Shown one piece after another: positions 41,429 to 58,400 of a stretch of 64,000 nt of DNA. The stretch comes from Litchfieldia sinesaloumensis. Lineage in GTDB: Bacteria > Bacillota > Bacilli > Bacillales > Bacillaceae_L. The notes under the pieces were generated by a model. The model ran no database searches, was not told where the DNA came from, and saw only the letters and a list, made by a program, of their open reading frames with translations. How positions within the stretch are numbered: position 1 is the stretch's first letter; every line of letters begins with the position of its first letter. The stretch is taken from contig NZ_LT732529.1 of assembly GCF_900156865.1 (NCBI RefSeq), forward strand, positions 1,267,784 through 1,331,783, in the 5' to 3' direction. Made by a program: the position numbers and the translations under genes.

Positions 41429-42484
41429 TTATTTCGCAAACCACTTTGATAAATTTGCTTTTACAAACTCATCATCATGTAGATGTGGATAGCTCGCATA
41501 AATCCGATCTAATTCATCTGACTGGCCCGAACTAAGCACTTCGCGATCAACTAAACACCAATTTCCTTGTAACAATCCTTGTCTTGCTAAAATTTCATTA
41601 ATTCCAGCTATACTTCCTTTAAAACCGTTACGAGAATCGAATATTGCTGCATTTGCATCAGTTATTTGTTGTCCAAGTGTTAATAGCCCATTTGGAATCG
41701 ATTTCTGACCTCTCACCATTTTTATTTCCTTAAATGTATCTACAACCGTCTTTGTCCAAACAGACCAATGTCCAAGTAAACCACCAACAATTTGCTTTTC
41801 AACTTTCTGATCACCGACCGTAAATTCAAAGGTTGTTACTAAATCATTAATGATGTTATCGTCATTCCCTGTGTAAAGAGCGATTTCCTCATTACGAGGT
41901 GAATGGCAAACGGCACGAACAACGTCAATCGAACAATAACGATCAAAAGGAGCAGTCTTTATCGCATGAACATTTGGAATCGAAGCAAATCGTTCCCAAA
42001 ACTCATATGTAAAAATCCGTCCCCCAACTGCTGGCTGTAAATAGAAACCGAAGACCGGTATAATTTCAGCAACTTTTTCAGTGCGCTCTAATAATTCATC
42101 TTCAGATAAGTGATTCAAACCACCCATACTCAGTAGTCCTAAATCATAGCCTACCTTTTTACTAAATGTTGCTTCCTTAATGGCCTGTTCAGTAGGTCCA
42201 CAAATGCCAGCGACTTTAATAAAATCATCTGGAACATTGGCGCGCTTTGTTTCCTCAATGGCGATGGATAACACTTGTTCATATAGGTTAAACTCAGGAT
42301 CACGAATTTCAAATTGAGTGGTATGAACTCCTACTGCAATCCCACCTACACCAGCATCAATATAGTAACGAGTAAGTGCTCGTTGACCAGCTTCATCAAG
42401 CTGTCTGTTTTCAGTTAACGCTAAAGGATGGGCTGGTATGACTGTTCCTTCATGAAGTTTTCTCTTAACAGCCTCTTTTAGCAT
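41429..42484 (-). CDS. DapA/N-acetylneuraminate lyase superfamily protein
   Basis: A 351-residue class I aldolase-type TIM barrel. K176 in HAIKTAPFD is the expected Schiff-base lysine, and FGFYLQPAVGG supplies the tyrosine (Y148) usually found in the YNxP motif. Only part of the DHDPS signature is kept, so this is an aldolase or lyase on a sugar-acid or keto-sugar intermediate and not a lysine-biosynthesis enzyme. Its ATG overlaps the stop of the upstream epimerase gene (TAATG), showing tight coupling. Confidence 0.85.
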   Translation of the reverse strand: MLKEAVKRKLHEGTVIPAHPLALTENRQLDEAGQRALTRYYIDAGVGGIAVGVHTTQFEIRDPEFNLYEQVLSIAIEETKRANVPDDFIKVAGICGPTEQAIKEATFSKKVGYDLGLLSMGGLNHLSEDELLERTEKVAEIIPVFGFYLQPAVGGRIFTYEFWERFASIPNVHAIKTAPFDRYCSIDVVRAVCHSPRNEEIALYTGNDDNIINDLVTTFEFTVGDQKVEKQIVGGLLGHWSVWTKTVVDTFKEIKMVRGQKSIPNGLLTLGQQITDANAAIFDSRNGFKGSIAGINEILARQGLLQGNWCLVDREVLSSGQSDELDRIYASYPHLHDDEFVKANLSKWFAK

Positions 42485-43500
42485 TAAAATGCACCTTCTC
42501 TTTCTTGGAAATGTGTTGGTTTATTGATTGTCTGTCCATCACTCACAACCCAATGAGCAATCATATCAATCATTTGTTGAACCGTTACTTTTGGATAGCC
42601 AAACAGTTTATGAGCATGCGAAGCATTATTTAATAACGCAGTCGGGTCTTCGCTGTTCACAAACACAGGTTCTTTGTCCATTCGCTTTCCAAACTCTTTT
42701 GCGAGCCATCTAACTGACAATGTTTCAGGTCCTGTAACATTGATGATTTTCGGTGGATAATTAGTATGTAACAAGGAACGAATTGCATATTCGTTTGCAT
42801 CCCCCTGCCAGATTACATTGACATTCCCCATCGTTAAATCAATTGGATTTCCTTTGTGTACAGATTTCGCAATCTCGAGTAAAACTCCATAGCGGAGGTC
42901 AATCGCATAATTTAATCGAAAATGAACGATTGGTGTTTGATTTTTATGAGAAAAATAAGTAAGTACTCGTTCTCTACCTAAGCAGGATTGTGCATACTCA
43001 CCAATTGGATTAGGTGGTACATCCTCAGTACAGCCATTACTTAATACAGAAGTCAGTGGATATACATTTCCGGTTGAAAAAGATACAATTCGTGAGTCTT
43101 TAAACTTTTCTGCGATGCGACCTGGTAAATAAGCGTTCATAGCCCATGTACGATGTTCATTTCCGACGGTTCCAAATTTTGTACCAGCCATAAAGATAAT
43201 GTTCTTCACATTTGGAAGGTTTTGAAGGTCATTTTCATTTAAAAAGTCCGCTTTGATTGTATCAATTCCACATGCTTCTAATTCATCTATTAAACTCTCA
43301 TCTGAGAATCTTGCAACACCAATTACTTTTTTAGTTTGACCCGACTGATCAACAGCCCTCTTCGCTAATTTCGCTAAAGTAGGTCCCATCTTGCCACTTA
43401 CACCTAAAATCATAATATCTCCATCAAGCTTTTGGAGATCCTTTATTAATTCTGTGCTAGGTGTTGACATAAAATCCTCTAATTCTGCAATCGTTTCCAT
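42484..43500 (-). CDS. NAD-dependent epimerase/dehydratase family protein
   Basis: A 338-residue extended SDR. The nucleotide-binding motif is ILGVSGKMGPTLAKLAKRAV near residue 32, and the segment SFSTGNVYPLTS followed by GEYAQS gives the Ser/Tyr active site. The usual YxxxK lysine is not in place (YAQSCLG), so activity may be altered. GAGGATT precedes the ATG. It is the first gene of the long leftward operon and starts 72-77 bp from the predicted -10, whose -35 overlaps operator site A. The function in sugar catabolism is unknown. Confidence 0.83.
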   Translation of the reverse strand: METIAELEDFMSTPSTELIKDLQKLDGDIMILGVSGKMGPTLAKLAKRAVDQSGQTKKVIGVARFSDESLIDELEACGIDTIKADFLNENDLQNLPNVKNIIFMAGTKFGTVGNEHRTWAMNAYLPGRIAEKFKDSRIVSFSTGNVYPLTSVLSNGCTEDVPPNPIGEYAQSCLGRERVLTYFSHKNQTPIVHFRLNYAIDLRYGVLLEIAKSVHKGNPIDLTMGNVNVIWQGDANEYAIRSLLHTNYPPKIINVTGPETLSVRWLAKEFGKRMDKEPVFVNSEDPTALLNNASHAHKLFGYPKVTVQQMIDMIAHWVVSDGQTINKPTHFQEREGAF

Positions 43501-43571: not shown

Positions 43572-43600
43572 ATTTTATCGATGACATTTTTAAAAGACAA
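43572..43600 (-). promoter_or_regulatory. promoter of the leftward catabolic operon
   Basis: Reading leftward, TTGTCT (43600-43595) and TAAAAT (43577-43572) are separated by 17 bp. The -35 box lies inside the left half of operator site A. The same geometry is seen at the transporter operon promoter. Confidence 0.65.
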
Positions 43601-43620
43601 GTCACTTAATGGTCTTTTAA
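43590..43620. promoter_or_regulatory. operator site A (31-bp inverted repeat)
   Basis: A TTAAAAGAC half-site and a GTCTTTTAA half-site are arranged as GAC-N13-GTC. It overlaps the -35 of the leftward operon promoter. It belongs to a set of four sites with identical spacing (43590, 43680, 49424, 50710). Confidence 0.7.
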
Positions 43621-43637
43621 TAATCACGTAAAATTTA

Positions 43638-43666
43638 TTGACATTTCTAAAAATTGCTTTTACTCT
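43638..43666 (+). promoter_or_regulatory. promoter of the GGDEF-like regulator gene
   Basis: TTGACA (43638-43643) and TACTCT (43661-43666) are 17 bp apart. Transcription would start near 43673, just before operator site B. Confidence 0.6.
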
Positions 43667-43679
43667 AGTAGTAAGATTA

Positions 43680-43710
43680 TTTAAAGACATTTCTTTAATA
43701 TGTCTTTAAA
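43680..43710. promoter_or_regulatory. operator site B (31-bp inverted repeat), autoregulatory
   Basis: TTTAAAGACAT and ATGTCTTTAAA form the most perfect palindrome of the set (GAC-N13-GTC). It lies between the predicted transcription start and the regulator's ATG, a position suited to autorepression. Confidence 0.72.
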
Positions 43711-43724
43711 CTGGAGATGAAATA

Positions 43725-45080
43725 ATGAAAACTAGTCAATTATCAGAACAGGATACCGAAATTATTATTGGTATTGTTAGTCCTGAAGCACTTGAAAAAG
43801 AAATAATGAAAGCGCTTGAAGCATTCCCGAATTTTCAGCCAGTTTTTCTACATACGACCCCTTCTTCTATTGATATAGAGGTTATGACTACCTTGATCAG
43901 TAAAGTGGAAGTTCTTTTGTTTATGGAATTTCCGACATATTTAAAAGCTAAACAACTTATCAATTTTTCGATTCCAGCTCACTATGTCCCCATAATGGGA
44001 ACTGGGCTTTATCGGTCTTTATTCCTTATTAAAAATCAATACGATAGTAAACATTTCTCTATTGATACGGTTGAAGAAAAATATATTCGCCGGATCCTTT
44101 ATGAATTAGACGAATCGAACTATGAATGTACATCATACCCTAATTATAGTCAGCCTGATTGTTTCGAGGATATTGTCCAGTTTCACCAAGACAACTATAA
44201 TAAGCTAGGCTCTTTCGCTATAACCGGTGTTCAGGAAATTGCACGAAGGCTTTCGGAATTGTCTATACCTTTTGAATGGGTTACACCCACCTATCAAGAT
44301 CTAATTGTTTCTCTTGAACGTGCATTACTCGCAACGGAAGCTCGTAAACATAAAGAATCTCAAATTGTTTTTGGGATCATTGATATTGACAAGTTTGATA
44401 AAGCTACAGAAAAATACACAACAGAACATGAAGTACAATTATTTAAACTTAAATTCCAACAAATAATGTTAAATTACACAAAGCTCCTTGATGGTCATTT
44501 GATTAATTCAGGAGGAGAAGAATTTTCATTTATCACCACACGTGGCATATTCGAAAGAGAAACACGCGGTTATAAATTCATTCCTTTATTAAATTCAGTT
44601 AAAACCGAGCTAGGTGTATCCATTAGTATCGGTGTTGGTTTTGGTCTCTCAGCTGCAGAAGCTGGAAACCACGCAAGACTTGCACTCCGCCAATCAAAGG
44701 AATTAGGAGGCAATGTTTGCTACATCGTTCGTGAAGACCAGAGTGTAATCGGGCCAGTGGATATGATAACTGATACTCAATATGAAAAATATGATTTATC
44801 GATAACAGATGCTGAACTTCTCCATAAGGCAGAAAAGGCAGGAATGTCTGCTGCCTATATGACAAAGCTTATGGCAAGAGTAGCACGCCATAAGAAATTT
44901 GATTATACAGCCCAAGAGTTAGCAGATACTTTAAACATTACAACAAGAAGTGCCCATCGAATACTTTTAAAATGGATGGATGCTAATTTAGTAGATATTG
45001 TCGGCGAAGAAAAAATCACCTACAAAGGAAGACCAAGGCGAATATATAGACTAAGCTTCATCATAGATGAAAACGAATAA
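43725..45080 (+). CDS. transcriptional regulator with degenerate GGDEF-like domain and C-terminal winged helix
   Basis: A 451-residue cytoplasmic protein with three parts. Residues 10-105 look like a small alpha/beta sensor domain (PrpR_N-like by impression). Residues 205-340 read as a GGDEF-type fold: FGIIDIDKF carries the metal-site aspartates (220-222), SGGEEFSF keeps a GGEEF loop (263-267), and VSISIGVGFG is the late conserved strand. The guanine-contacting N and the GH of the usual FK-x-ND-x2-GH block are replaced (FDKATEKYTTEH), so cyclase activity is doubtful and ligand sensing more likely. Residues 392-445 form a winged helix-turn-helix. It is divergent from the catabolic operon, with palindromes in between. 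Confidence 0.8.
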   Translation: MKTSQLSEQDTEIIIGIVSPEALEKEIMKALEAFPNFQPVFLHTTPSSIDIEVMTTLISKVEVLLFMEFPTYLKAKQLINFSIPAHYVPIMGTGLYRSLFLIKNQYDSKHFSIDTVEEKYIRRILYELDESNYECTSYPNYSQPDCFEDIVQFHQDNYNKLGSFAITGVQEIARRLSELSIPFEWVTPTYQDLIVSLERALLATEARKHKESQIVFGIIDIDKFDKATEKYTTEHEVQLFKLKFQQIMLNYTKLLDGHLINSGGEEFSFITTRGIFERETRGYKFIPLLNSVKTELGVSISIGVGFGLSAAEAGNHARLALRQSKELGGNVCYIVREDQSVIGPVDMITDTQYEKYDLSITDAELLHKAEKAGMSAAYMTKLMARVARHKKFDYTAQELADTLNITTRSAHRILLKWMDANLVDIVGEEKITYKGRPRRIYRLSFIIDENE

Positions 45081-45100
45081 TCAATATCAAGAATAAAATG

Positions 45101-45123
45101 GCGGGTAAACGAAATTTACCCGC
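45101..45123. terminator. bidirectional terminator
   Basis: A perfect 9-bp stem GCGGGTAAA/TTTACCCGC with a 5-nt loop sits between the regulator and the convergent transporter operon. Confidence 0.85.
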
Positions 45124-45144
45124 TTATACTTTAGATTCGAAACC

Positions 45145-46044
45145 TTATACATAGACCCGTTCCCCTGTATCCCTACTTTTATTAGCTGCTTCGATAAATT
45201 GGATAATTTCTACTGTTTCATGTAGTGGAACACCAGAACTTCCGCCCTCAAAGAAAAGCATAATTTCTTCTAATAAACTAGCATAGAACGGTTTTGTGTG
45301 ATTCGAAATCGAGACAAGGTGATTCCCTTTTTCAAAATGAATAGTCGCTCCAAATTCACCATTCCCTCTCCTATTCCCTCTTGCCGTACCGATTCTGCCA
45401 TCCTGCCATTGTGAAACAATTAAGTCAGAATCATTAGTGGATATTGAAGTAACATGTTGCGCCCCTTTACCTAAAATAGTAAAAAGCATCTCAATCGTAT
45501 GTATCCCATACCAAAAATAGCCTGGTTGCGTGTTGACCATCTCCATCGGTCCAAAGCAGTCTACTCCAATGATTGCTCCTTTATCGTGAATTGAAAGAGC
45601 TTGTTTTACTTCTTCTGCAAAACGTAAAGCAGAGGAGCTCATAATTGGAGTACCGTATTTTTCAGATAGGTTTACCATTTGAATTGCCTCTGAAGAAGAA
45701 AGCGCAAATGGTTTGTCGACAAATATAGGTTTTCGATACTCCACGAGTTTACTAACTTGTTCAAGATGAACACGTCCGTCTACAGACTCTAAGAGAATCG
45801 CGTCACTTTGCTCTGCTACTTCATCAATCGTATGAACTAGTTGAACACCATATTGTTGTACTTCTTTCGTTATCCCCCCTATCCGAGAATAACTTAACTC
45901 AAAATCAGATGATCCGACCGGATATGCTACAGTTACCTCTCCCCCTTTTATATAAAAAGGGTTGGTCGGATCGTTTAACAATTTTGTAAAAGCAGATGCA
46001 TGGGATGTATCTAAGCCGATTATTCCAATCTTCAAATCCCTCAT
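45145..46044 (-). CDS. Gfo/Idh/MocA oxidoreductase 3
   Basis: A 299-residue member of the family, starting MRDLKIGIIGLDTSHASAFT. The catalytic region reads FVDKPFALSS (EKP is replaced by DKP near residue 110), and the C-terminal domain is short. It is the last gene of the ABC importer operon, 32 bp after the second permease, which suggests it handles the imported sugar directly. The family is certain; the D-for-E change at the catalytic motif is notable but occurs in some members. Confidence 0.87.
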   Translation of the reverse strand: MRDLKIGIIGLDTSHASAFTKLLNDPTNPFYIKGGEVTVAYPVGSSDFELSYSRIGGITKEVQQYGVQLVHTIDEVAEQSDAILLESVDGRVHLEQVSKLVEYRKPIFVDKPFALSSSEAIQMVNLSEKYGTPIMSSSALRFAEEVKQALSIHDKGAIIGVDCFGPMEMVNTQPGYFWYGIHTIEMLFTILGKGAQHVTSISTNDSDLIVSQWQDGRIGTARGNRRGNGEFGATIHFEKGNHLVSISNHTKPFYASLLEEIMLFFEGGSSGVPLHETVEIIQFIEAANKSRDTGERVYV

Positions 46045-46076
46045 ATCTTAGCTCCTCAATAAAAATTTTTATTCGA

Positions 46077-46883
46077 TTATTTAAGTCCCGATAGTTGGAT
46101 ACCTTCTGTAAAATACTTCTGGAAGAACAAGAAGATAAGAAACGTTGGGATAAATGAAATCGTTGACCCTGCCATTTCAATTCCAAAGTTCCCTTCTTTA
46201 CTTAAGGTTGAGGCTAATCCAACTGTGATTGGATACATTTTTTCATTTGTCATATAAATAAGGGGTTGGAATAAATCGTTCCAGTTACTTACGAATGCGA
46301 ACGTTCCAACTGTAGCAATGGACGGAAACGCCAAAGGCATATAAATTTTTCGGAACACATGAAAATCATTGGCTCCGTCCATCCTTGCTGCCTCATCTAA
46401 TTCCATAGGAATACCCTGCATAAATTGACGTACTAAAAACACACCCATAATGGCCCATAGTTCTGGAACAATCAATGCTTGATATTCATTAATCCAACCG
46501 AACTTTGAGAACATGATAAATTTCGGTATGATTAATAATTGTGACGGTATCATGATAACGGCCATGAATGTCCAGAAAACAAATTCCCTTCCAACGAATT
46601 GTTTTCTAGCAAAAATATAACCTAATAATCCAGCAAAAAACATTTGTGAAAAAACAGGAATAACAGTTACGATAATAGAGTTCATAATCCATCGTAAGAA
46701 GTTGTCATTCCGGAATAGATACGTGAAGTTATTGATAGACGGATCACTTGGAATCCAAAATAATGGATCCATTGCCGCAAAAGTTGTTTCTTTAAAAGAA
46801 CTTAATACCATAATTAAAAATGGAAGGAGAAAGCAAAATCCTAAGAAAATCGTGACAATGTATTTTAGTAGTTTAGTAAGCAA
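46077..46883 (-). CDS. carbohydrate ABC permease, MalG/CUT1 type
   Basis: A 268-residue inner-membrane permease with six helices. The EAA loop that contacts the ATPase is ELDEAARMDGANDFHVFRKI (residues about 168-187). The TTG start has GGGAG about ten bases upstream. It follows the first permease by 30 bp. No ATPase gene is in the operon, so a shared MsmX-type ATPase encoded elsewhere is probably used, as is common for Bacillus CUT1 importers. Confidence 0.93.
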   Translation of the reverse strand: MLTKLLKYIVTIFLGFCFLLPFLIMVLSSFKETTFAAMDPLFWIPSDPSINNFTYLFRNDNFLRWIMNSIIVTVIPVFSQMFFAGLLGYIFARKQFVGREFVFWTFMAVIMIPSQLLIIPKFIMFSKFGWINEYQALIVPELWAIMGVFLVRQFMQGIPMELDEAARMDGANDFHVFRKIYMPLAFPSIATVGTFAFVSNWNDLFQPLIYMTNEKMYPITVGLASTLSKEGNFGIEMAGSTISFIPTFLIFLFFQKYFTEGIQLSGLK

Positions 46884-46913
46884 GTATGTTCATCTCCCTT
46901 CAACTCTCGAGCT

Positions 46914-47870
46914 TTAATAGATCCCTTGATCTTTACCAAAATATTTTCTTTGAATAAGCGATATCAGTAAAATTATCGCGAATAATACGTAGGATAAAAC
47001 AGCTGCATAGCTGAAATTCAAATTCGTAAATCCGATTTGATAAAGATAAAACACAATAGTACTTGTCGAGAAGTTTGGTCCTCCATTTGTTAATAAGAAT
47101 GCCGAGTCAAAAATTTGAAACGAACCAATTGTCGTAATGATTAACACATAGAAATGGATTGGTTTTAATAATGGGAATGTAATCAACCAAAATGATTTTA
47201 AAGGTGAAGCACCATCGATTTTCGCCGCTTCGTACATGTCTTTTGGGATGGACTGTAGTCCTGCAAAATAATAAATCATCGTACTACCTGATACTTTGAA
47301 AATACTCAACCCAGCCAATACAATAAGTGCTTGGGAAGCATCAGATAAGAATAATTGTGAGTCTATACCAACAAAGCTTAATAAATAGTTGATAAAACCT
47401 GATTCCGTTCCTGAAAACAGCCATTCCCAGATTCCTGCTACAACAACAAACGATGTAACAACTGGTAGGAAAAAGATTCCTTTAAAAATTTTCGTAAAAC
47501 GAATTCCTGATTTTATGACAAGCGCTAAAATCAAACCAAGTGCCATTGTAGGAAGAATATAATAGAAGGAAAATAATACAGTGTTCCAAATTGATTTTAT
47601 AGCAATATCATCTTGAAATAATTGCTTCCAGTTTCGTAATCCAACAAACTCAGATGTACCGATGATTCGGAAATTGAGAAACGTTAATATGAAACTATAA
47701 ATAAATGGAATGACTTGAAATATTAAAAAATGAATCAGAACTGGAGTAAGTACAATATAAACAATAGCATTTCTTCTTAACTCAGCTTTAATCCTATTTT
47801 TTAAAGGAGGCTTGACCTTTTTGACAGTGTTTAGGGGTACTTTGTTATGAGTTTCTACGACCTTTTCCAA
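46914..47870 (-). CDS. carbohydrate ABC permease, MalF/CUT1 type
   Basis: A 318-residue permease with a 30-residue basic cytoplasmic N-terminus, six helices and the EAA loop MYEAAKIDGASPLKSFWLI near residue 220. It forms the heterodimeric channel with the MalG-type protein. It lies 99 bp after the binding-protein gene, with a hairpin in the gap that probably lowers its expression relative to the binding protein. Confidence 0.93.
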   Translation of the reverse strand: MEKVVETHNKVPLNTVKKVKPPLKNRIKAELRRNAIVYIVLTPVLIHFLIFQVIPFIYSFILTFLNFRIIGTSEFVGLRNWKQLFQDDIAIKSIWNTVLFSFYYILPTMALGLILALVIKSGIRFTKIFKGIFFLPVVTSFVVVAGIWEWLFSGTESGFINYLLSFVGIDSQLFLSDASQALIVLAGLSIFKVSGSTMIYYFAGLQSIPKDMYEAAKIDGASPLKSFWLITFPLLKPIHFYVLIITTIGSFQIFDSAFLLTNGGPNFSTSTIVFYLYQIGFTNLNFSYAAVLSYVLFAIILLISLIQRKYFGKDQGIY

Positions 47871-47916
47871 GCTATCACCTTATTTCGTAAGTAATAAATA
47901 AAAACTTTAATAAACA

Positions 47917-47948
47917 GAGAGTCTTATTCACGAAGGAATAAAACTCTC
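47917..47948 (-). terminator. intercistronic hairpin in the ABC importer operon
   Basis: A 13-bp imperfect stem (GAGAGTCTTATTC/GAATAAAACTCTC) lies between the binding-protein gene and the first permease. Such hairpins commonly protect the upstream message or partly stop transcription, giving excess binding protein. Confidence 0.6.
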
Positions 47949-47969
47949 TTAATATAAGAAGCTATTCGT

Positions 47970-49232
47970 TTACGGCTTTGCTAACTCAGCTTCAATTGCT
48001 TCAGCTGCTGCATCTGCTGCTTCTTGAGGAGTTTTATCTCCTGCCATCATTGTTTGTATTTCAGCTTGAATAAATGGCATGATTGCACGACCTTTTGGAT
48101 GAATAACACCTGGTAATGCAAATTGAGTATATGTTGCAAGTTGGCTCATATATTTGTTCGAATCAAAAATGTCTTTCGCCTCTTCTTGAGTAGGGATATA
48201 CTGAGTTACTGTATTAAAGATACGTTGGTTTTCTGCATTCGTAACAGCTTTTACAAATTCTGCTGCTGCTTCTGGGTTATCACTATTAGATGGGACCACG
48301 AACATACCTGTTGTTCCGTATGTTAGCTGTTTTTCACCAGTTAAAGGTGCTCCAATCGCAAAATCAAATGTACCCTCTTTTTCTAGTTGTGTAACACTAA
48401 TTCCAGATCCAAGAACTGCCAACATTTTTCCACCAAACCAGATTTCATCTTGGGTAGTTGAGGTAATTGAATCTTCAGGGATATATCCCTTTTGATACAT
48501 GTTATTCACGTATTCAAACGCTTTTACACTCTCTGGGCTATTAATTAATACTTTGTTGTCTTCTGTAACAACATCACCACCAGCTTGCCAAATCCAAGGA
48601 TAGATTGTTCCGTTCATGGAACCGCCACCTAGATATGATAATGCATAGAAGTCTTTTTCTTTCGCTTTTGCTGCCCATGCATCGAATTCTTCCCAAGTTG
48701 TGGGAAGGTTTGCTGGATCTTCTCCGATTTCTTTCACTACATCTAAATTATAGAAAAACGTATAAGCTTCTTGAAGAATTGGTAGTCCGTATTTTTTATC
48801 CTTCCAAGTTGTAGAAACTAATGAGGACTCTACGAATCCATCAAGATCACCATCTTTTAAGTATGGATCTAATTCTAGTAGCATGCCTACATCTGCATAT
48901 TGTGGCATTTGGTCAGGAATTGCATAGAATACATCCGGTCCGTTGTTAGCCGCTAAAGCAGTTAGAACTTTTTGGTCACGATTCGCCCACGGAATTGTTT
49001 CGATATTTACCTCTACATCTGGAAACTCTTCATTGTAATTTGCAGTGATTTCTTTCCACATTTCCTCTTCTTTCTTAGCATCACCTGTATAAGGATGTAC
49101 CCACACAGTGATTTCACCATCAACTTTTCCATCTTCTTTCTTAGGATCTGTGCTTGAGTCATTACTACAAGCAGATAAAAGTAAGCTACCTGAAAGCAAA
49201 AGTGCCATGAACGAAAAACGTTTCTTTTTCAT
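47970..49232 (-). CDS. sugar-binding lipoprotein of ABC importer
   Basis: A 420-residue extracellular solute-binding protein, family 1. A signal peptide ends in the lipobox LSAC (Cys22), followed by a Ser/Asp/Lys linker. The fold signature GEITVWVHPYTG near residue 40 and YGLPILQEAYTFFYNLDVV near residue 150 fit oligosaccharide-binding proteins. It captures the substrate outside the membrane for the two permeases. A strong AGGGGG ribosome site precedes the ATG. Its promoter carries operator site C. Confidence 0.94.
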   Translation of the reverse strand: MKKKRFSFMALLLSGSLLLSACSNDSSTDPKKEDGKVDGEITVWVHPYTGDAKKEEEMWKEITANYNEEFPDVEVNIETIPWANRDQKVLTALAANNGPDVFYAIPDQMPQYADVGMLLELDPYLKDGDLDGFVESSLVSTTWKDKKYGLPILQEAYTFFYNLDVVKEIGEDPANLPTTWEEFDAWAAKAKEKDFYALSYLGGGSMNGTIYPWIWQAGGDVVTEDNKVLINSPESVKAFEYVNNMYQKGYIPEDSITSTTQDEIWFGGKMLAVLGSGISVTQLEKEGTFDFAIGAPLTGEKQLTYGTTGMFVVPSNSDNPEAAAEFVKAVTNAENQRIFNTVTQYIPTQEEAKDIFDSNKYMSQLATYTQFALPGVIHPKGRAIMPFIQAEIQTMMAGDKTPQEAADAAAEAIEAELAKP

Positions 49233-49405
49233 CTACGAATTACCCCCTATTAAGTTCAAAAATAAAATCTTACAGACTAACAAATAACCTCATATTCTTT
49301 TTATCCATCCCCCCTTTTATTATTTAACTGAAAATACTAATAATTGAAAGCCTATACATTTGTTGTTAAAAAATTTTCTGCAATTTCTAACACTTTACTT
49401 CTCTT

Positions 49406-49434
49406 ATTCTAGTTCCTCTGTATTATTGTGACAA
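49406..49434 (-). promoter_or_regulatory. promoter of the sugar ABC importer operon
   Basis: Reading leftward, TTGTCA (49434-49429) and TAGAAT (49411-49406) are separated by 17 bp. The -35 overlaps operator site C exactly as the -35 of the catabolic operon overlaps site A. The leader to the ATG is about 170 nt. Confidence 0.7.
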
Positions 49435-49454
49435 GTCTATAAAGTGTCTTTAAT
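49424..49454. promoter_or_regulatory. operator site C
   Basis: This site has GAC-N13-GTC spacing with the core GTGACAAGTCTATAAAGTGT followed by CTTTAAT. It differs at one position from site D over 28 bp, although the flanks are unrelated. That argues for a constrained protein-binding site. Confidence 0.72.
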
Positions 49455-49501
49455 AATATATGGTATTTAATTTAGTACCTATACAAAATGAAGAGTAGTG
49501 A

Positions 49502-50572
49502 TTACACATAGTTCAAACCCTGTGGAAACGGAAACGGAATTGGAAAAATAGAATTCCCTGTATTATTTCCTTTTACGATTAGTTCTTCCAGTTCAGCATT
49601 ACTGATAAGTACGGACTCATTCTTATATATAATCTTTCTCGTGTGTTCGTCTACCTTCGAAATCTGTAGCTTCTCATTAAAATATGGTGTAAGTTGTTGC
49701 AATAATAAATCGAGATTCATAATTTTCATGGTACCCGGAAACAGTTGTTCTTTCTTCTCAAGAACGATACCAAGCTTTTGGACCATGTCTTTTTCATAGT
49801 TTGGTAAATTGAATAATAACGTTTGTATCCCATAAGTAAATGCTTCTGCGATCAAACTTTGAATGGCTTCGGGGTCTCCTCCCCATTCAATAATTCGTGA
49901 GTCGACGTTTTCTTGTTCATGATAAGGTACCGCGAAGACTAAAAATGCTTTCACTTTATTATTTTCTTCTGCTAGGAGAACTTTGTGCTTCATTTTAAAA
50001 ATACTCGCAAATCCGGCAGATGCATTAAGTTGTGCGATTTCATATATGCTTTGTTCATAACGGATTGAGCGACCACGACTAAGTTTTCTCATAGTAAACA
50101 AGTCGGTAGGTTGTAGTTCGCGAACCGTATAAGTCTTTTCAGGTTTCAACTCACCTTGATGAATTGTATATTGATTCATCTTCCCATAAAATGTACATCC
50201 TTGTTTCAAGTAAAGTGGTAAATCACCAGAAACAAAGAGGACGGATGCACCAGACTTGTTAGCATGATCAAAAATCATTTGTAAAAGTCTGTTAGCGAAC
50301 CCTTTCTTTCGGTAAGCCGGATCCGTACAAACCGCACCAATGGAATAAGCTTGAACCTCAGCATCTTCAATATGTAGTACAGAGGGAACTAACCCAATAA
50401 AAGAAACTAATTTTCCATCTACAAATGCACCGTATGATTGATGGAGTGCTGACGAGAAAACCTGTGGAAAGGCAATCCCCATGGATACATGACCTTCTTT
50501 ACGAAAAACTTTATCTGCTAATTCAATTGCCTGTTTAAGGTCATTTTCTTCTAGTAGTCTGTATTCGACCAT
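49502..50572 (-). CDS. GNAT acetyltransferase, Eis-like
   Basis: A 356-residue protein. Residues 1-150 are a GNAT domain (LVPSVLHIEDAEVQAYSIGA, then CTDPAYRKKGFANRLLQ as the acetyl-CoA loop). The remainder suggests a second degenerate GNAT-like and an SCP2-like C-terminal part, as in Eis-type enzymes. The start at 50572 has GAGGTG upstream; the open frame extends 32 codons further without a ribosome site. It lies between two operator sites but points away from yesL and may not belong to the regulon. The acetyl acceptor is unknown. Confidence 0.8.
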   Translation of the reverse strand: MVEYRLLEENDLKQAIELADKVFRKEGHVSMGIAFPQVFSSALHQSYGAFVDGKLVSFIGLVPSVLHIEDAEVQAYSIGAVCTDPAYRKKGFANRLLQMIFDHANKSGASVLFVSGDLPLYLKQGCTFYGKMNQYTIHQGELKPEKTYTVRELQPTDLFTMRKLSRGRSIRYEQSIYEIAQLNASAGFASIFKMKHKVLLAEENNKVKAFLVFAVPYHEQENVDSRIIEWGGDPEAIQSLIAEAFTYGIQTLLFNLPNYEKDMVQKLGIVLEKKEQLFPGTMKIMNLDLLLQQLTPYFNEKLQISKVDEHTRKIIYKNESVLISNAELEELIVKGNNTGNSIFPIPFPFPQGLNYV

Positions 50573-50709
50573 TCGTTTCACCTCAACTTCTTTTTTCTTT
50601 TTATAAACTTCATATTTCGTACTGTGAAAAATGTAATCGCTAACACTTTGAATCGTGTTATAATACAATTAAACTTTCTGAACTTACTTTCTATTTTATT
50701 CGAATTTTA

Positions 50710-50740
50710 TAAAGTGACAAGTCTATTAAGTGTCTTTAAT
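50710..50740. promoter_or_regulatory. operator site D
   Basis: The 31-bp GAC-N13-GTC element (core GTGACAAGTCTATTAAGTGT) is 40 bp upstream of the yesL-type start codon. It is nearly identical to site C. Confidence 0.72.
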
Positions 50741-50780: not shown

Positions 50781-51401
50781 TTGAGTGGTTGGGAAAAGTT
50801 TAATAGCTATGCAATATGGATGTTGAAAGTGGCATATGTGAATTTACTGTGGATTGGCTTTACGATCGCAGGTTTAGGAGTATTTGGACTATTTCCGGCG
50901 ACTGGTGCAATGTTTGTGATTGTACAAAAATGGCTCCGTGACGAACCAGTCGATCGTATCTTTCATTCCTTTTGGAAAACCTTTCGAAAAGAGTTTATCT
51001 CACTTAATAAATTTGGACTGTTTTTTATCCTAATTGGTTATGTACTTGTCTATGATTTTCTGTTTGTTTATCAGAATGTGGACAAGCTAAAATTGCTGTT
51101 TCCTGTTCTCCTATTTTTAGCAATTTGTTATTTGGTAGCGTTACTCTATTTCTTCCCTGTCTACACGCAATTTGAGATGAAGTTCTTTCAATATATAAAA
51201 CAATCATTTTTAATTGGGGCTAGCTCTTTGTTGGAGACCATACTCATGTTAACAGCTTGTATGCTTCTTGGGATTATCATCAACTTAATCCCTGGGATCA
51301 TCCCGTTGTTTACTGGAAGTGTACTTGCTGTAGCTATTACATACTGTAGCAATAGATCCATTGTAAAAATTAAAAACAAAAAAAAGAGCATGGTCTTCTA
51401 A
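50781..51401 (+). CDS. yesL: YesL-type membrane protein (DUF624)
   Basis: A 206-residue integral membrane protein with four to five helices. The N-terminal block GWEKFNSYAIWMLKVAYVN and the motif GLFPATGAMFVIVQKWL are typical of YesL/DUF624 proteins, which are nearly always encoded with CUT1 sugar importers and polysaccharide catabolic genes. Their role is not established. The start is TTG at 50781 with GAGGTG upstream; the longer frame from 50730 would run through operator site D. It has its own terminator. Confidence 0.87.
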   Translation: MSGWEKFNSYAIWMLKVAYVNLLWIGFTIAGLGVFGLFPATGAMFVIVQKWLRDEPVDRIFHSFWKTFRKEFISLNKFGLFFILIGYVLVYDFLFVYQNVDKLKLLFPVLLFLAICYLVALLYFFPVYTQFEMKFFQYIKQSFLIGASSLLETILMLTACMLLGIIINLIPGIIPLFTGSVLAVAITYCSNRSIVKIKNKKKSMVF

Positions 51402-51532: not shown

Positions 51533-51562
51533 TAATTAAAGACCGTTAAAAGTCTTGATTAT
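51533..51562. promoter_or_regulatory. operator-like site E (shortened spacing)
   Basis: TAATTAAAGAC and GTCTTGATTA are separated by 8 bp instead of 13. It lies 70-100 bp upstream of the second FAD oxidoreductase gene. The half-sites match those of sites A-D, but the centre spacing is about half a helical turn shorter. Confidence 0.45.
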
Positions 51563-51632
51563 TCCTACTATTCTTTTACACTTTATATAAGTTTAATGGA
51601 TTATTAGTGTATCACCTAAGGAGGATCACAAA

Positions 51633-53228
51633 ATGGACTTCAGTAAACTTTATTATTATTCGCCTACTCCCAAAGCAAATGAACCAAAGGTTTTTACAAG
51701 AGATTTAATCGTGTATGGAGCAACTCCTGCTGGAATAACCGCAGCCATACAGGCAAAGCGAATGGGTCTTTCAGTCATTATTGCTGAATTTGGTAGACAT
51801 ATTGGTGGGATTACAGCAAGTGGATTGGGAGCCTCAGATGTTGGTGCAAAAGAAGCAATTGGTGGGTTATCTAGACAATTTTTTCAGGAACTAGGAAACT
51901 ATTACAATAAGGAAGAACAATGGACTTTCGAACCTAAGGCTGCTTCCTATGTATTTGAAAAGATGCTAAACGAATATAAAATAGAAATTGTCTTTAATCA
52001 ACACGTTGTAGACGTAAAAACAGAGAATAAAAGTATTAAAGAATTACAAATGGAAGATGGCACGATTTATAGAGGTGCTTTTTTTATCGATTCAAGCTAC
52101 GAAGGTGACGTCATGGCAAAAGCCGGTGTTACCTATACTGTGGGACGAGAATCAAATTCGACCTATAAAGAGACATATAATGGTGTGCAATTTGGTCATC
52201 CTCATCATCAATTTGAAAAATGGATTGATCCGTATGTAGTTGAAGGTGACCCTTCAAGTGGGGTATTACCCGGTATCACTGAAACATCTAATGAAACTTT
52301 GGGTTATCAAGGACAAGGTGACAAGCGAATTCAAGCCTATAATTTTCGTATTTGTCTAACCAAAAATAAGGATAATCGTGTACCATTTCCGAAGCCTCCC
52401 TTCTATAACCGCGATCGCTATGCATTGTTACTACGATACATTCATGCGGGAGTCTGGGATGTGATGAATCTACATACATTATTACCCAACGGAAAAACGG
52501 ACTTAAATAACTATGGAGGATTCTCTACGGATAATATTGGGATGAATTATGAATGGGCTGATGGTGATTACGAGACTCGTGAACGTATTTTCCAAGACCA
52601 TTTTACATATAATCTTGGCTTACTCTACTTTTTAGCCAATGATGAACACGTTCCAAATACGATTCGGGACGAGGTATCTCAATGGGGATTAGCTCGAGAT
52701 GAATTTAAAGAAACTGGACATTGGCCACATCAACTCTATATTCGAGAAGCGAGAAGAATGATAGCTGATTATGTGATGACAGATCACAATTGTTTAGGAG
52801 ATCGTAAAGTGGAAGACTCAATTGGTTTAGCATCCTATCAAATGGATTCCCATCATGTTAGACGATTGATTATTGATGGTCGTGTCTACAATGAAGGTGA
52901 TGTTGAAATACCAATTTCGCCGTATCCAATCTCTTATCGTTCCATCCGTCCCAAAGCTGAAGAATGCACCAATTTACTCGTCCCTGTTTGTTTATCAAGT
53001 TCACATATTGCTTATGGTTCAATACGAATGGAGCCTGTATTCATGATAGTTGGCCAATCAGCTGGAGCTGCCGCTGCTTTAGCACTTAGGAATAAAACAA
53101 CCGTACAAGCCGTATCTTATGAGCAGCTAAAAGAAGAATTACTCTCTTACGGTCAAGTACTCGAATGGGACGATTCCATTGAAGATGACCCCGTGTTACG
53201 AATGAAAGAAACATTTGGGAATAAATAA
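51633..53228 (+). CDS. FAD-dependent oxidoreductase 2 (FAD_oxidored family)
   Basis: A 531-residue flavoprotein. After about 23 residues comes the FAD motif VYGATPAGITAAIQAKR, in which GATPAG is the usual variant in this family, then GRHIGGITASGLGASDVG. The C-terminal FAD-contacting region reads CLSSSHIAYGSIRMEPVFMIVGQSAGAAA (split here: CLSSSHIAYGS then GQSAGAAA). There is no signal peptide. It is related in family, though not closely, to the protein at 33437. AAGGAGGATC precedes the ATG. It is followed after 33 bp by the cytoplasmic propeller gene, so the two act together. Confidence 0.85.
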   Translation: MDFSKLYYYSPTPKANEPKVFTRDLIVYGATPAGITAAIQAKRMGLSVIIAEFGRHIGGITASGLGASDVGAKEAIGGLSRQFFQELGNYYNKEEQWTFEPKAASYVFEKMLNEYKIEIVFNQHVVDVKTENKSIKELQMEDGTIYRGAFFIDSSYEGDVMAKAGVTYTVGRESNSTYKETYNGVQFGHPHHQFEKWIDPYVVEGDPSSGVLPGITETSNETLGYQGQGDKRIQAYNFRICLTKNKDNRVPFPKPPFYNRDRYALLLRYIHAGVWDVMNLHTLLPNGKTDLNNYGGFSTDNIGMNYEWADGDYETRERIFQDHFTYNLGLLYFLANDEHVPNTIRDEVSQWGLARDEFKETGHWPHQLYIREARRMIADYVMTDHNCLGDRKVEDSIGLASYQMDSHHVRRLIIDGRVYNEGDVEIPISPYPISYRSIRPKAEECTNLLVPVCLSSSHIAYGSIRMEPVFMIVGQSAGAAAALALRNKTTVQAVSYEQLKEELLSYGQVLEWDDSIEDDPVLRMKETFGNK

Positions 53229-53261
53229 AGAGAATAAATTCGAATGCAGGAGGTACATAGT

Positions 53262-55268
53262 TTGAAAGAAAAATTCTATGAAGATGATAAGTTATCAAAG
53301 AAAGAATCAAATAGCTTACAATTTCCGAATGTATACGGCAGTGCTATTAATTATGGTCCTGCTGCATTAGATGCTAAATCTCAAGGAGTTGCGATTGGAG
53401 ATGGTGAACTCTACTATGCAACAAATGGTTTACCATCGACGTTTTATGCTGCTGATGCTATAACAGGTGAAAAACTATTTTCCGAAGATTTACCTGGAAG
53501 TGATGTTGTTTGGGCAATGATTATAGGTACAGATGGTAATGTCTATTTTTCAGGTACCTATAATGGAATTTTATATAGATATGTAGTGAACGAAAAACGT
53601 ATTGAAAATCTTGGGGAAAATCCGTCAGATAATTGGGTTTGGCAGCTAAAGTCATCACACGATGGCAAAATCTACGGAGCAACCTATCCACGTTCAAAAG
53701 TATTTGAATACGATATTGAAACAGCGCAATTTAAAGATTTAGGCACATTTTACGAGGGACAACAATATGCACGGGGACTTGGGATTACAGAAGATAGTTT
53801 ATATGTTGGAATAGGTACGTCAGCTTATTTAATGAAGATGGACCTTGCAACAGGGAATAGAACAGAAATTCAATTACCAATCACTGGTGAATCCATCTCA
53901 ATTTCGAATATTTGGGAATACGGTAATCATATCTTTGTTGCCTATGGAACTTCACTGCTCACAATTAACAAAACAACAGGCGAAGAAATGAATACAATGA
54001 ATTTGCATGATGAGCACAACTTTGATGGGCTTATATCACCACCCTCCCCTTATGATGAAAATATACTTTATTACATTAATAGAAATACTCAGCAACTATG
54101 GACCTATGATATGACAACACATACAACTACGAAAGTAGAACCGACAGTTCAACTCCCTCCTTCTCCATCAAAAGCAATGCGTTGGATTAAGGATGACAGC
54201 GGCAAAGACGTGTTAGCCATTTTACATCATAAAATCGAATTTTCGATTTATGACCCTTCTACAAATACTGTAAAAGTTAATTATCCCGAAGTAGAAATGC
54301 AAGGACTTTTAATGCAAAGTTTAGAAATTGGTGAAGATCAAAAAATTTATATGGGTGGCTATCAAGGTTCCTTTGGGATCTTTGATACAACTATTGATCA
54401 GTACGTCCTTCAGGAACGTGACCCACACCAAATTGAAGGGATAGGTTTTCTGAATGGAGAAGTTTATCTAGGGACATATGGAGGAGCTAGAATCTATAAA
54501 TATAATCCTAACCAACCGTATAACTTCTCGGGTGGTAAAAGCGGCGAAAATCCTGAGTTGGTGCAAGAAATTGAGGATGCTCAAAGCAGACCTTTCACAT
54601 TTACTTCAGGTGAAAACAAGCTCTTTATTGGAACCATTTCTGATTATGGTGAATTAGGTGGAGCACTTACTGTCTTTGATGCTACTACGAATAAATGGAA
54701 TACAATACGAAATATCGTAGAAAATCAAAGTATCATTGGATTAGCCTATCATAACGGAAAAGTATTTGGTGGTTCAACGATTGCTGGTGGTCTAGGTATA
54801 GACCCAACTGAACCAAAGGCAAAAATGTTTGAATATGATGTAATAACGGGCAACCATGAAGCTTTCGCCCTTGGAGTAGATGAATTTGAAAAGCCAGAAA
54901 TGATTGGTGAGTTATCTGTTGGCCCCGATGGAAACATCTGGGGAGTTGCATGGGGATTTGATAAGGTGGATTCCTGTTACTCTGTGATTTTCGCCATGAA
55001 TCCAGATAATCGGAAAATCGTGAAAACTACACAATTATACAAAGGCATTGACCGCGGAAGCAAATGGAGACCTTTCTTTATTCGATGGGATAACAATGGA
55101 TATTTATACACAACTGCTGCTCGAAGATTAACTGTTATTGATCCAGAAACAATGAAAAGTAAGCAATTGGTTACAGGCATTGTTGATTTAATGGATGTAG
55201 ATAAGGAAGGAAATATATATTATTCCTCCGATCATAATCTTTATAAGCTACCTGTAAACAAACAATAG
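53262..55268 (+). CDS. cytoplasmic beta-propeller protein
   Basis: A 668-residue protein made of repeated propeller blades ([53 protein letters not shown] and others) with no signal peptide. The start is TTG at 53262, with AGGAGGTAC upstream. It is a full-length relative of the propeller part of the secreted protein at 55413-58829; for example both contain [10 protein letters not shown] and [18 protein letters not shown]. Propellers of this kind occur in polysaccharide lyases and sugar isomerases, but no catalytic set was identified. It is probably an enzyme on an imported oligosaccharide. Confidence 0.78.
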   Translation: MKEKFYEDDKLSKKESNSLQFPNVYGSAINYGPAALDAKSQGVAIGDGELYYATNGLPSTFYAADAITGEKLFSEDLPGSDVVWAMIIGTDGNVYFSGTYNGILYRYVVNEKRIENLGENPSDNWVWQLKSSHDGKIYGATYPRSKVFEYDIETAQFKDLGTFYEGQQYARGLGITEDSLYVGIGTSAYLMKMDLATGNRTEIQLPITGESISISNIWEYGNHIFVAYGTSLLTINKTTGEEMNTMNLHDEHNFDGLISPPSPYDENILYYINRNTQQLWTYDMTTHTTTKVEPTVQLPPSPSKAMRWIKDDSGKDVLAILHHKIEFSIYDPSTNTVKVNYPEVEMQGLLMQSLEIGEDQKIYMGGYQGSFGIFDTTIDQYVLQERDPHQIEGIGFLNGEVYLGTYGGARIYKYNPNQPYNFSGGKSGENPELVQEIEDAQSRPFTFTSGENKLFIGTISDYGELGGALTVFDATTNKWNTIRNIVENQSIIGLAYHNGKVFGGSTIAGGLGIDPTEPKAKMFEYDVITGNHEAFALGVDEFEKPEMIGELSVGPDGNIWGVAWGFDKVDSCYSVIFAMNPDNRKIVKTTQLYKGIDRGSKWRPFFIRWDNNGYLYTTAARRLTVIDPETMKSKQLVTGIVDLMDVDKEGNIYYSSDHNLYKLPVNKQ

Positions 55269-55412: not shown

Positions 55413-58400
55413 CTAGTCTTGAATACTAGGTTTGTTTGGTTTACCTGGTTTCCCAGGTTTGTCAGGTTTACCCGGCTTATCTGGTTTTCCAGGTTTGTCA
55501 GGTTTACCCGGCTTATCTGGTTTTCCGGGTTTATCTGGTTTACCCGGTTTGTCAGGCTTTCCAGGCTTACCTGGTTTCCCAGGTTCATCTGGGTTAGTAG
55601 GCTCATCCACCCAATTTATTGTATACACCAATGTTGATTTTCCATCTGTTCCGGTGACAGTAATTTCTGTTACGTTGGTTGAATGTGTGATTTCAAAAGT
55701 TGCACCAGCTTGAGTAGTTTCCACCACAATATTTTCTGTCTGGTTAGCATGTACTGTATAGTGCAAGTCCCCAGGCTGGAATTCAACAAGAGTTTTTCCA
55801 TCAATTGAAATGGATTTTAAGGTTGCATCCGTTTCAGCAACTGGAATTTTATATAGCATACTTTCATGTGCATAATAGATGCTACCATCTACCCCTACTG
55901 TCATACTGTTCATGAAATCTTCTACAAGCACCTTGTAATTAAGTGTTTCTGGGTCAATGGCAACTAGACTACGAGATAACGTTGTATAGAGCATGCCATC
56001 TGGACCCCATTGAAGACGATATGGGAACCATTTACTGCTGTTGTATAAACTTGGTCGAATCATTCTACTGTCAACAACTTCATAGGTTTCTGGATTCATT
56101 TTAAAAATAGTTCCTTCAACAGCACCCCATAAGTAACCATCTGGCCCGATTGATAAATCACCAATCATGCGTGGTGTAACGTCAATTCCCGGAATCTCCG
56201 GTGTGAATTCCGCAATCTTTTCACCTTTTTCAACATCCCATACGAAAATTTTAGCTTCCGTCGCTTTCGGGTCGACTCCTAAACCACCCCATACCGAAGT
56301 ACCACCGAAAACTTTTCCATCATGATAAGCTAAACTAATTATACTTTGGTCTTGAACAACATTTCGTTGTTGGAACCATTCGCCTGAATTCTCATCATAA
56401 ATGGCTAGAGCACCACCTAGGACGCCATAATCAGGGATTGTTCCAACAAATAATTTGTTATCCCCTGACGTAATCGCGAAAGGACGATCTTGTTCATCTT
56501 GGATATCATATTCAAGCTGTGGATTGCTATTTAAATCTACAGGCTGGGTTGGGTCATAACTGTACATAATCGCACCAACATATGTGCCAAAATACACTTT
56601 ATCATTCAAGAAGCCAATCCCCTCTGGTTGAGCAAAGGATGAAATATTGACTTCGATTTCATTCGTGACCGGATTATAAACACTCATACCACGCTGATAG
56701 CCGCCCATGTATAGCTTGCCATCTGGACCAGTCTCCAGTGACTGGATTGCTACAGCTGTTGCAGCAAGGTCTAACAAGATAAAGTTCATTTCATTTGTTT
56801 CTGGATTGTATAGCATATACTCACCATATTGCGTCACCATTGTCAATACAGTTTCACCAGTCGATAACGTAATCCACGACATATCCTTCACGCGTGGCGT
56901 ATCTGGTAATAGTGGAACGTCAAGTAATGTTTCCTCATTTGTACTAAGGTCATATTTGTAAAATTGAGTACCATTTTTATAGTAAATGAAGTTTGGATTG
57001 GTTGGGTCTGGTTCAGAAATCATATTACTAAAAGCAAAGGATCCTTCGATTTCCATTGTCTCTGGATTAACAACAATCATATTGATTGTCGAAACCGCAA
57101 CAAGAAGCTTACCATTTACCATCCAGATATCTTGAATAAATCCACTTTCTCCTGAATGTCCTTCGATTAGCAGCTCTTCTTTTTCACCTGTATGTCGGTT
57201 AATTTTATACAGATACTTCGTTGTTCCCATTCCAACATATATAAAATCACCATTAACCGCTAGACCTCGTGCATATTCTTGGTCTGATACTTTACCAAAA
57301 TCCTTAAATGCACCAGTGTTGATATCATATTCAAATACACTACCACTAGGATATGTTGCACCATAGATTTTTCCATCTTCTGTTGCTTCTAAATCCCACA
57401 CCCAGGCATCCGATGGATTTGTTCCGAGTTCTTGAACCTCTTTTAACTCTGGAACATATCGGTATAATTTGCCGTCAGATGTACTAGCAAAATACACATT
57501 CTTATCTGAACCAATCGTAATTGCCCAGACAGCCTCTGTATTTGCAATCACCTTAGAAAACTTTAACTCTCCCGTTTCAGCATCCAAGACAGAGAAGGTT
57601 CCAGGAGCACCATTTGAATGATAATATACTTCATTTTCACCTAGACTGTTTTCTTGGATTGCACCTGCTTGTCCTAATTGAACATGAACCATCTCTCCTA
57701 GATTGATAGGATCTGCATATTCACGATCAAATTGGGAATCATCTGTTACCTTTTCAAATGTTACATCGTCAAAATAGACCTCTGTAAAGCTAATACCACC
57801 TGAATAGAATGCTAATCTTGCATAGGCTGCATTCTCAGGTACAACACTGAATACTTTTAGGTCAGTCCAATCATTTTTTGGTAGGTTCCCATTTAGTTCT
57901 CTATGTTGTGTAATACTATTATCGTCAGCATCAAAATAGCGAATTTCGGTTACCACATTATGAGTCTGACTGACAACATTTGAATGCACTGTCAATAAAT
58001 ATGAAGCACCCGCTTCAACTGCAATTTTATCACTAATAGCACTTACACCCGCCTTATCAGTTGTATCATGTAAGTGAAGACTATGTCCTCCAGTAAGCGC
58101 TCGATCTGTACTTACTGAGATACCTGGTCCATCAAATTCAGATGACCAACCAGGGATAATCCCATCTGTGACCGCTTCTTCAAAGCTAGGATTCTTTACT
58201 TCTGTTTGGATATCATCAACCGGAGGCTCTTCAATGGCAGTTCCTTCGATTATTACATCATCAAAATATGCTTCTGTAATTGACGGGTGGCCGGAGTTGA
58301 AGCGAAGTTCGACTTGTGTTGCTCCCTCTGGAAGCTCAAAAGGAACTTGAATTTCGGTCCATTTATCCTTACCCAACATAGCAGCATTAAAATTAATAAA

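Follow-up and report, generated by a model that had tools for sequence, protein, structure and literature searches.

In regulation of the PhoB/OmpR type, transcription is activated from 11-bp tandem repeats that adjoin the −35 element. Operators with a similar layout recur in a 64,000-nucleotide stretch of the Litchfieldia sinesaloumensis genome (contig NZ_LT732529.1, positions 1,267,784 to 1,331,783; hereafter the window, in whose own numbering coordinates are given), at promoters of sugar-use and uptake genes around the gene for a one-component regulator of 451 amino acids (43725..45080, + strand). This regulator probably activates a small set of such genes and holds back its own expression by way of a short repeated signal, which stands at a nearly constant distance from the promoters served. 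Searches of the open PubMed Central literature listed no title or abstract opening that dealt with the regulator or the operator.

Four 29-bp sites in the window, each with the spacing GAC-N13-GTC, are read on the minus strand: operator A (43591..43619), at the promoter of a catabolic operon; operator B (43681..43709), a putative autorepression site; operator C (49425..49453), at the promoter of an importer operon; and operator D (50711..50739), assigned here to an acetyltransferase gene. An earlier note on this DNA had named these four sites, and all are present as claimed; it missed a fifth, at 51536 (operator E, see below). Read in the direction of the promoter, the site is a direct repeat, TTAAAGAC-N3-TTAAAGAC, with an 11-bp period, followed by the TTG of the −35 element. 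The two units, 11 bp apart, are TAAAAGAC and a weak TAAGTGAC at A, TTAAAGAC and TTATAGAC at C, and TTAAAGAC and TAATAGAC at D; A and B carry a strong inverted third unit. C and D are identical at 26 of 29 positions and differ only once within the 27 bp GTGACA...TTTAAT, close to the single difference in 28 positions counted previously. The palindrome by which the sites had been defined, allowed up to three mismatches, matches the window three times (A, B and C, with D missed), shuffled sequence giving a mean of 0.43 and 1 of 100 shuffles reaching three; a looser form, AAGACA-N11-TGTCTT with three mismatches, did not discriminate across the genome, where it had 2985 matches per strand and its reversed control 2780. 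The palindrome by itself is modest evidence, and the strong evidence is conservation. A weight matrix built solely from the sites of relatives (6 distinct A and 10 distinct B sequences) scores A at 39.0, B at 36.2, D at 26.7 and C at 21.8 in the window, all above the best score in 60 Markov-1 random windows (18.0; mean 10.0).

Conservation was followed in 16 related loci with regulators 79–93% identical to that of the window; the nearest named record found is Fredinandcohnia onubensis, at 93%. Scanned with this matrix, every one of the 16 loci shows A, B and C, and 15 of the 16 also show D, each site in the same intergenic gap as in the window, so that the motif is indeed present upstream of the relatives' orthologous operons; A was found in L038 as well. 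The lowest score, for D of L049 (15.6), falls below the best random window. Sites A and B of the relatives had been collected by the GAC-N13-GTC pattern, and their spacing therefore adds no independent support; C and D came out of the matrix scan. (In the site alignment, A2, the row for the window's C is 4 bp short.) Beyond the close relatives, G008 (regulator 65% identical) has A, a site resembling B but one base longer, and a single site in the gap that separates the binding-protein gene from yesL. An A-like site scoring at least 29.6 adjoins the regulator gene in L093–L104 (orthologs about 57–69% identical), directed toward the epimerase gene in L093–L103 and toward a Gfo/Idh gene in L104. 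More distant flanks gave a partial match (L105, 14.8) or shifted ones (L106 and L107, 10.0), and the matrix scan of the short regulator flanks of L108–L115 gave no site (scores 6.3 or less). For orthologs about 43–44% identical, whose short flanks gave nothing with the matrix, the tandem pattern finds sites upstream of the first gene of the epimerase-DHDPS operon.

Each of the sites A, C and D contains a −35 hexamer from which a −10 element is suitably spaced. On the minus strand, the catabolic operon has TTGTCT (43595..43600, within A) and TAAAAT (43572..43577; spacer 17), the importer operon has TTGTCA (49429..49434, within C) and TAGAAT (49406..49411; spacer 17), and the promoter at D has TTGTCA (50715..50720, within the site) and TAAAAT (50693..50698; spacer 16); the overlap of site and −35 box reported before for A and C is thereby confirmed. 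A TATAAT-type −10 matching at 5 of 6 positions at a spacer of 16–18 is found for A in 18 of 18 sequences (spacer 17–18), for C in 16 of 17 and for D in 13 of 16; on the opposite side of the same sites, taken as control, the counts are 1/18, 6/17 and 0/16, respectively. If the start is assumed to lie a few nucleotides after the −10, the sites A, C and D are centred between about −39 and −42, a class II layout. The regulator gene has its own promoter on the plus strand, with the consensus −35 element TTGACA (43638..43643, kept in 17 of 17 sequences) and TACTCT as −10 (43661..43666; spacer 17); across relatives it reads TTGACA-17-TAATCT in 15 of 17 sequences and has TACTCT in 2 of 17. Operator B begins 14 bp past this −10 in the window (13–16 bp across the sequences) and ends just before the ribosome-binding site, which bears out the earlier placement of B past the regulator's start region. 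This position, between promoter and ribosome-binding site, suggests autorepression.

The fifth site, operator E (51536..51564, + strand), consists of TTAAAGAC and TAAAAGTC, 11 bp apart, followed by TTGATT (51555..51560), the proposed −35 of a FAD-dependent oxidoreductase gene (51633..53228, + strand; followed by 53244–55268); its −10 is TACACT (51577..51582; 4 of 6; spacer 16). The site is found in 15 of 15 relatives whose locus holds the gap between yesL and this gene; L050, in which no FAD oxidoreductase gene follows yesL, was excluded. Among the tandem matches of the gap it is listed first in 14 of these 15 relatives (tied in L053), and L052 holds it as a lower match; L052 and L053 both have a poor first unit. 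A 4-of-6 −10 of the form TA[ACG]ACT stands at spacer 16 in those 14 relatives and, by hand count, in L052. The case for E lies in the tandem reading and in this conservation, because a sequence-only model of the site (R1, described below) gives E an E-value of just 1.46 in the window's genome and a 4-of-6 −10 is weak on its own. The class II layout is the same as at A, C and D, with a weaker −10.

The motif is not frequent at unrelated loci. R1 was made from 33 site sequences including those of the window, and its scans fully scored 150 of 5016 first-look candidates in the window's genome (G000, 4.56 Mb) and 150 of several thousand in every other genome. Among the candidates so scored, A–D have E-values of 1.7e-8 to 1.3e-6 in G000, the next best being 0.40; sites below 1e-3 are found in all 8 genomes of the genus that have an ortholog of the regulator, and the best value in 9 genomes of the family without one is 0.046. 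An exact pattern, TWAAAGWCNNNWWWNWGWCTTG, was chosen after A, C, D and E had been viewed and excludes B. In G000 it has four matches, A, C, D and E only (none for the reversed control), and is thus restricted to this locus; with one mismatch it has 7 matches against 3 for controls, the additional three lying outside the window. In 17 genomes of the family there are 34 exact matches, all in the 8 genomes with an ortholog and none in the 9 without, and 2 control matches.

In 199 genomes of the order, which are taken from shared handles to be part of a sample of 397, the pattern has 25 matches in 14 genomes. A match is present in 12 of 15 genomes with a close ortholog (E-value below 1e-100, a threshold set after both lists had been seen) and in 2 of 184 others (Fisher p 7e-15, with kinship ignored). 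Nine of the order-wide matches were read, and five of these lie upstream of genes, with a 4- or 5-of-6 −10 at spacer 17–18: three precede epimerase-DHDPS operons, one a gene for a large protein (G069) and one a gene pair (G196). Matches that were not fetched were assigned by their distance from the regulator alone.

From these observations a mechanism can be proposed in which the one-component regulator encoded at 43725–45080 would bind TTAAAGAC-like repeat units. In the promoters of the catabolic operon (A), the importer operon (C), the acetyltransferase gene (D) and the FAD oxidoreductase gene (E), a pair of such units with an 11-bp period runs up to the −35 element. Bound there, to a 29-bp site centred near −40, the regulator would activate transcription in the class II manner, the signal probably being a product of the imported glycoside. 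Its binding at B, downstream of its own strong promoter and with the inverted third unit, would serve to repress itself. The placing of the −10 elements 16–18 bp past the −35 at A, C, D and E puts the site near −40, as for class II activation. This and the shared orientation, the weak −35 hexamers at A and E, and the TTGACA promoter of the regulator with B downstream of it together lead to the reading as a self-repressing class II activator, which is considered likely. The earlier note had left activation or repression at the enzyme and transport promoters undecided and had suggested autorepression at B; the idea of a local regulon with autoregulation is supported, and the fixed −10 register favours activation.

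The main rival is a pure repressor that would block RNA polymerase at the −35 in the four target promoters (A, C, D and E), and at B past the transcription start, until released by an inducer. Every site would then obstruct transcription, B would fit the same mode as the others, and the core promoters at C and D are close to consensus. A repressor, however, needs neither a common orientation nor a register of 16–18 bp at four promoters and at the further targets in relatives; E has kept its TTG and register without an inverted unit at position 22 of the site; and the −35 hexamers at A and E are weak compared with the TTGACA of the regulator's own promoter. Repression throughout is accordingly judged unlikely.

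Several points weigh against the self-repressing activator or against the evidence from which it is drawn. An overlap with the −35 is equally expected of a repressor, the fixed spacing partly follows from the site itself wherever TTGTC is both operator and −35, and the core promoters at C and D are fairly good ones. Only the 5-of-6 cut-off separates the promoter side from the control well: at 4 of 6, the promoter side gives 18/18 for A, 17/17 for C and 14/16 for D, and the other side is high as well (9/18, 12/17 and 5/16), while the minus side of B, where no promoter is proposed, reaches 16/18 (0/18 at 5 of 6); given such controls, the 4-of-6 −10 of E is weak by itself. In L049 and L050, D is without a good −10 (3 of 6), and the −10 of an additional site in G005 (see below) is ambiguous, TACCAT at 17 (hand count) or CATAAT at 20. 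The relatives are not independent, several being near copies and L043–L045 a single species. As to co-occurrence, an exact match is lacking in 3 of the 15 genomes that carry a close ortholog, and likewise in G091, a sixteenth, whose ortholog is in a split frame (E-value 1.9e-99); of the 9 order-wide matches read, 4 are located inside a reading frame or span its end, and their −10 reaches 3 of 6 at most. Finally, A of the close relatives has a poor second direct unit, its mean of 5.31 matches of 8 scarcely above the 5.06 of the next best offset.

That last point bears on the anatomy of the operator, which the earlier note had given as half-sites in a fixed GAC-N13-GTC geometry and which a rival reading takes for a simple palindrome occupied by a single symmetric dimer. 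TTAAAGAC-like units begin at positions 1 and 12 of the 29-bp site, and their mean matches of 8 (first unit/second unit) are 7.25/5.31 at A, 7.21/6.86 at B, 8.0/6.82 at C, 8.0/5.94 at D, 7.4/7.0 at ten distant A sites and 7.83/5.83 at six E sites, over a background of 2.4–2.6. An inverted unit at position 22 matches well at A (6.88), B (7.29) and the distant A sites (7.0), and poorly at C (4.06) and D (4.44); at E it is absent there, the best inverted match lying at position 17 instead (6.0). Unit 1 is therefore common to all sites, unit 2 is found everywhere with the weakness noted at the close relatives' A, and the inverted unit is a trait of A and B. Symmetry is likewise uneven, with 11 of 14 mirrored pairs matching at A and at B and 6 of 14 at C and at D, and at A, C and D the palindrome's GTC doubles as the −35 core. 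For the palindrome speak the weak second direct unit at A, the mirrored pairs of A and B, and the invariance of GAC and GTC in all 33 sequences of the site alignment; that spacing, however, was the one by which the relatives' A and B sites had first been picked. In addition, B is reversed in place in L046 (7958–7986; Bacillus timonensis MM10403188), as if the quasi-palindrome had inverted, an orientation that a symmetric site would tolerate. The spacing claimed earlier thus stands at A–D; as the element common to the sites, an 11-bp direct repeat joined to the −35 is the better description, the inverted arm being strong at A and B only, and a plain palindrome is considered improbable.

Operator A faces both the catabolic operon and the regulator gene. 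The units may even form a code with two states, in which the tandem pair would serve activation and the added inverted unit would give a tighter autorepression complex at B, and at A, while a nucleotide-sensing domain resembling GGDEF or GTP cyclohydrolase would be joined to a sugar signal at the N-terminus; this extension of the activator model is speculative and rather doubtful. If it were true, the regulator would belong to a new, nucleotide-sensing class of carbon-source regulators found widely in the order.

Site D lies between two divergent genes, a GNAT acetyltransferase gene (49502..50572, − strand, from the ATG at 50572; the open reading frame as listed begins at the TTG at 50668) and a yesL-like gene (DUF624; 50781..51401, + strand, from the TTG at 50781), and the earlier note had placed it before yesL. 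Its assignments of A, B and C, to the catabolic operon, the regulator and the importer operon, are kept here; D fits the divergent acetyltransferase promoter better. A 5-of-6 −10 linked to D at spacer 16–18 points toward the acetyltransferase gene in 13 of 16 sequences and toward yesL in 0 of 16. In L054, both D and the acetyltransferase gene are missing between the binding-protein gene and yesL, whereas C and TGnTATAAT upstream of yesL are retained; the like sequence in the window is an extended −10, TGTTATAAT (50656..50664, + strand), proposed for yesL and located upstream of D. In G008, the acetyltransferase gene is absent from the gap, whose single site has its −10 pointing to the binding-protein gene. 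That D regulates yesL, alone or jointly with the acetyltransferase gene, is against this background a weak candidate: D does sit between the proposed yesL promoter and the start codon, where a bound protein could act as a roadblock hindering yesL. In L049 and L050, D is retained despite a poor −10 on the minus strand. The proposed yesL and acetyltransferase promoters are convergent, with −10 boxes 28 bp apart (50656–50698), and their transcripts may interfere.

Least probable by far is that B is an RNA hairpin hiding the ribosome-binding site in the regulator's leader, and not a DNA operator, for even though B would be transcribed and its arms could pair beside GGAG, like sequences stand upstream of the proposed starts at the other four sites, and conservation within B extends to its middle.

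The presumed targets suggest what is taken up and degraded. The catabolic operon begins with an epimerase-family gene (42484..43500, − strand) and extends to 33437 with genes for a DHDPS-like protein, a zinc dehydrogenase, NagA, GH20C, two Gfo/Idh proteins and a FAD oxidoreductase; GH20C, NagA and the several dehydrogenases may point to a glycoside containing N-acetylhexosamine. The importer operon begins with a solute-binding protein gene (47970..49232, − strand) and continues to 45145 with two genes judged by eye to encode permeases and then a Gfo/Idh gene. Further targets appear in relatives. In G005, an additional match lies upstream of a second binding-protein gene, 62% identical to that of the window, and a sixth class of site, TTAAAGACNNTTTTCAGACTTGTC, with TACAAT at spacer 17 (hand count), is found in G005, G006, G009 and G012; in three genomes it precedes a gene for a large protein about 30% identical to that encoded at 55413–58934 in the window, and in G012 a binding protein 63.5% identical to the window's. 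The second binding-protein genes with upstream matches are thus 62–64% identical to that of the window. Catabolite control may be layered on top of the regulon: boxes like the catabolite-responsive element (cre; up to one mismatch to the consensus) stand no more than 160 nt downstream of the site in 12 of 17 sequences for C, 4 of 16 for D and 5 of 17 for A, compared with 2.8% of 600 random stretches. In the window itself, the sole qualifying box is TGTAATCGCTAACA at 50632–50645, downstream of D, and none is found downstream of C.

Some observations concern neighbouring genes. The protein encoded at 55413–58934 has 1173 amino acids, ends in a long GKPDKP-type repeat and resembles, by eye, the 674-amino-acid protein encoded at 53244–55268; the operator stands upstream of genes like it in relatives, and the sequence before the window's own gene is a degenerate form without a TTG −35, which was not counted as a site. 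Two large proteins adjoining the end of the catabolic operon (31582–33435 and 30001–31566) have no Pfam match at an E-value of 0.001. G196 has a tandem site (L144, 1496–1517), followed by TACAAT at spacer 17, before a gene pair (767–1447) that presumably encodes L-serine dehydratase; the regulator adjoining it is 48.7% identical to that of the window (L107).

The regulator itself comprises an N-terminal part (residues ~1–205), a region resembling GGDEF or GTP cyclohydrolase III (~215–339) and a winged helix-turn-helix (~378–445). It reaches no Pfam cut-off, and no NCBIfam model comes near its own cut-off. Below those cut-offs, residues 219–339 match a GdpP-type degenerate GGDEF (PF24898) with 24.4 bits (cut-off 30), residues 284–324 match GTP cyclohydrolase III (PF05165) with 15.9 bits (cut-off 21.3), and residues 378–432 match HTH_Crp_2 with 19.9 bits (cut-off 27). 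All three models are matched by 15 of 15 orthologs at E-values up to 10, the best value for PF24898 among these being 3e-6. A family profile of 23 sequences has GTP cyclohydrolase III (PDB 2qv6) as its best solved match, with an E-value of 6.4e-4, and R408, R412, I413 and the GRP at 435–437, in the helix and wing, are invariant in the 23-sequence alignment. Another protein alignment, A1, leaves out L044 and L045. GGEEF or GGDEF is present in 15 close sequences and is changed or lost in several of the 23 aligned rows; since this signature, expected of an active diguanylate cyclase, is not kept across the family, the comparison suggests a domain that is non-catalytic and possibly nucleotide-binding. 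The AlphaFold2 model of the regulator is poor (mean predicted local distance difference test score, pLDDT, 55.8; predicted template modelling score, pTM, 0.37), so that Foldseek matches to GGDEF, cyclase and GTP-cyclohydrolase structures offer weak support. For the N-terminal half, the order of strands and helices had prompted a comparison with PrpR_N (PF06506), which found no support in profile tests: there was no match at the regulator at E-values up to 1 in 9 genomes of the genus, and hhalign gave a probability of 0.4% against three PrpR_N sequences.

The family is matched at E-values up to 0.001 in 151 of the 397 genomes sampled from the order, distant members included. Two such members, at L091 (9092–10414) and L092 (7261–8589), are 23–24% identical to the regulator, and the genes beside them presumably encode AbgT-type transporters and M20 peptidases; given these neighbours, the family may not be confined to sugars. 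With the present analysis it gains a predicted operator, a list of putative targets and a proposed mode of action, and the motif is specific enough to locate the regulon in other genomes. The domain composition suggests a local transcription factor that has co-opted a GGDEF-like fold.

Compared with described systems, the regulator resembles CdaR/PucR-type regulators in joining a GGDEF-like domain to a C-terminal helix-turn-helix, and differs in that no PucR, GGDEF_2 or HTH_30 model was reported for it or its orthologs. With CRP/FNR-type class II activators it shares a weak likeness to HTH_Crp_2 and a site centre near −41; HTH_Crp_2 is below its cut-off, and no model for binding of cyclic nucleotide monophosphates was reported for the window protein or the orthologs. 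GdpP-type GGDEF domains and GTP cyclohydrolase III are approached through the weak model matches and the family profile match to 2qv6, although the window protein lies below both cut-offs and the GGDEF signature is not kept across the family. There is also a resemblance to PhoB/OmpR-type activation, which likewise combines a winged-helix-like DNA-binding domain with direct units one turn apart that end at, or replace, the −35 in a class II position. The likeness is one of operator layout only, receiver and Trans_reg_C models not having been reported in Pfam scans of the window protein and the orthologs; the helix-turn-helix here resembles those of other families, and A and B carry an inverted third unit. 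The type of system, a local regulator with autoregulation and class II activation, is an ordinary one, and the new part is the three-unit operator combined with a GGDEF-like one-component architecture.

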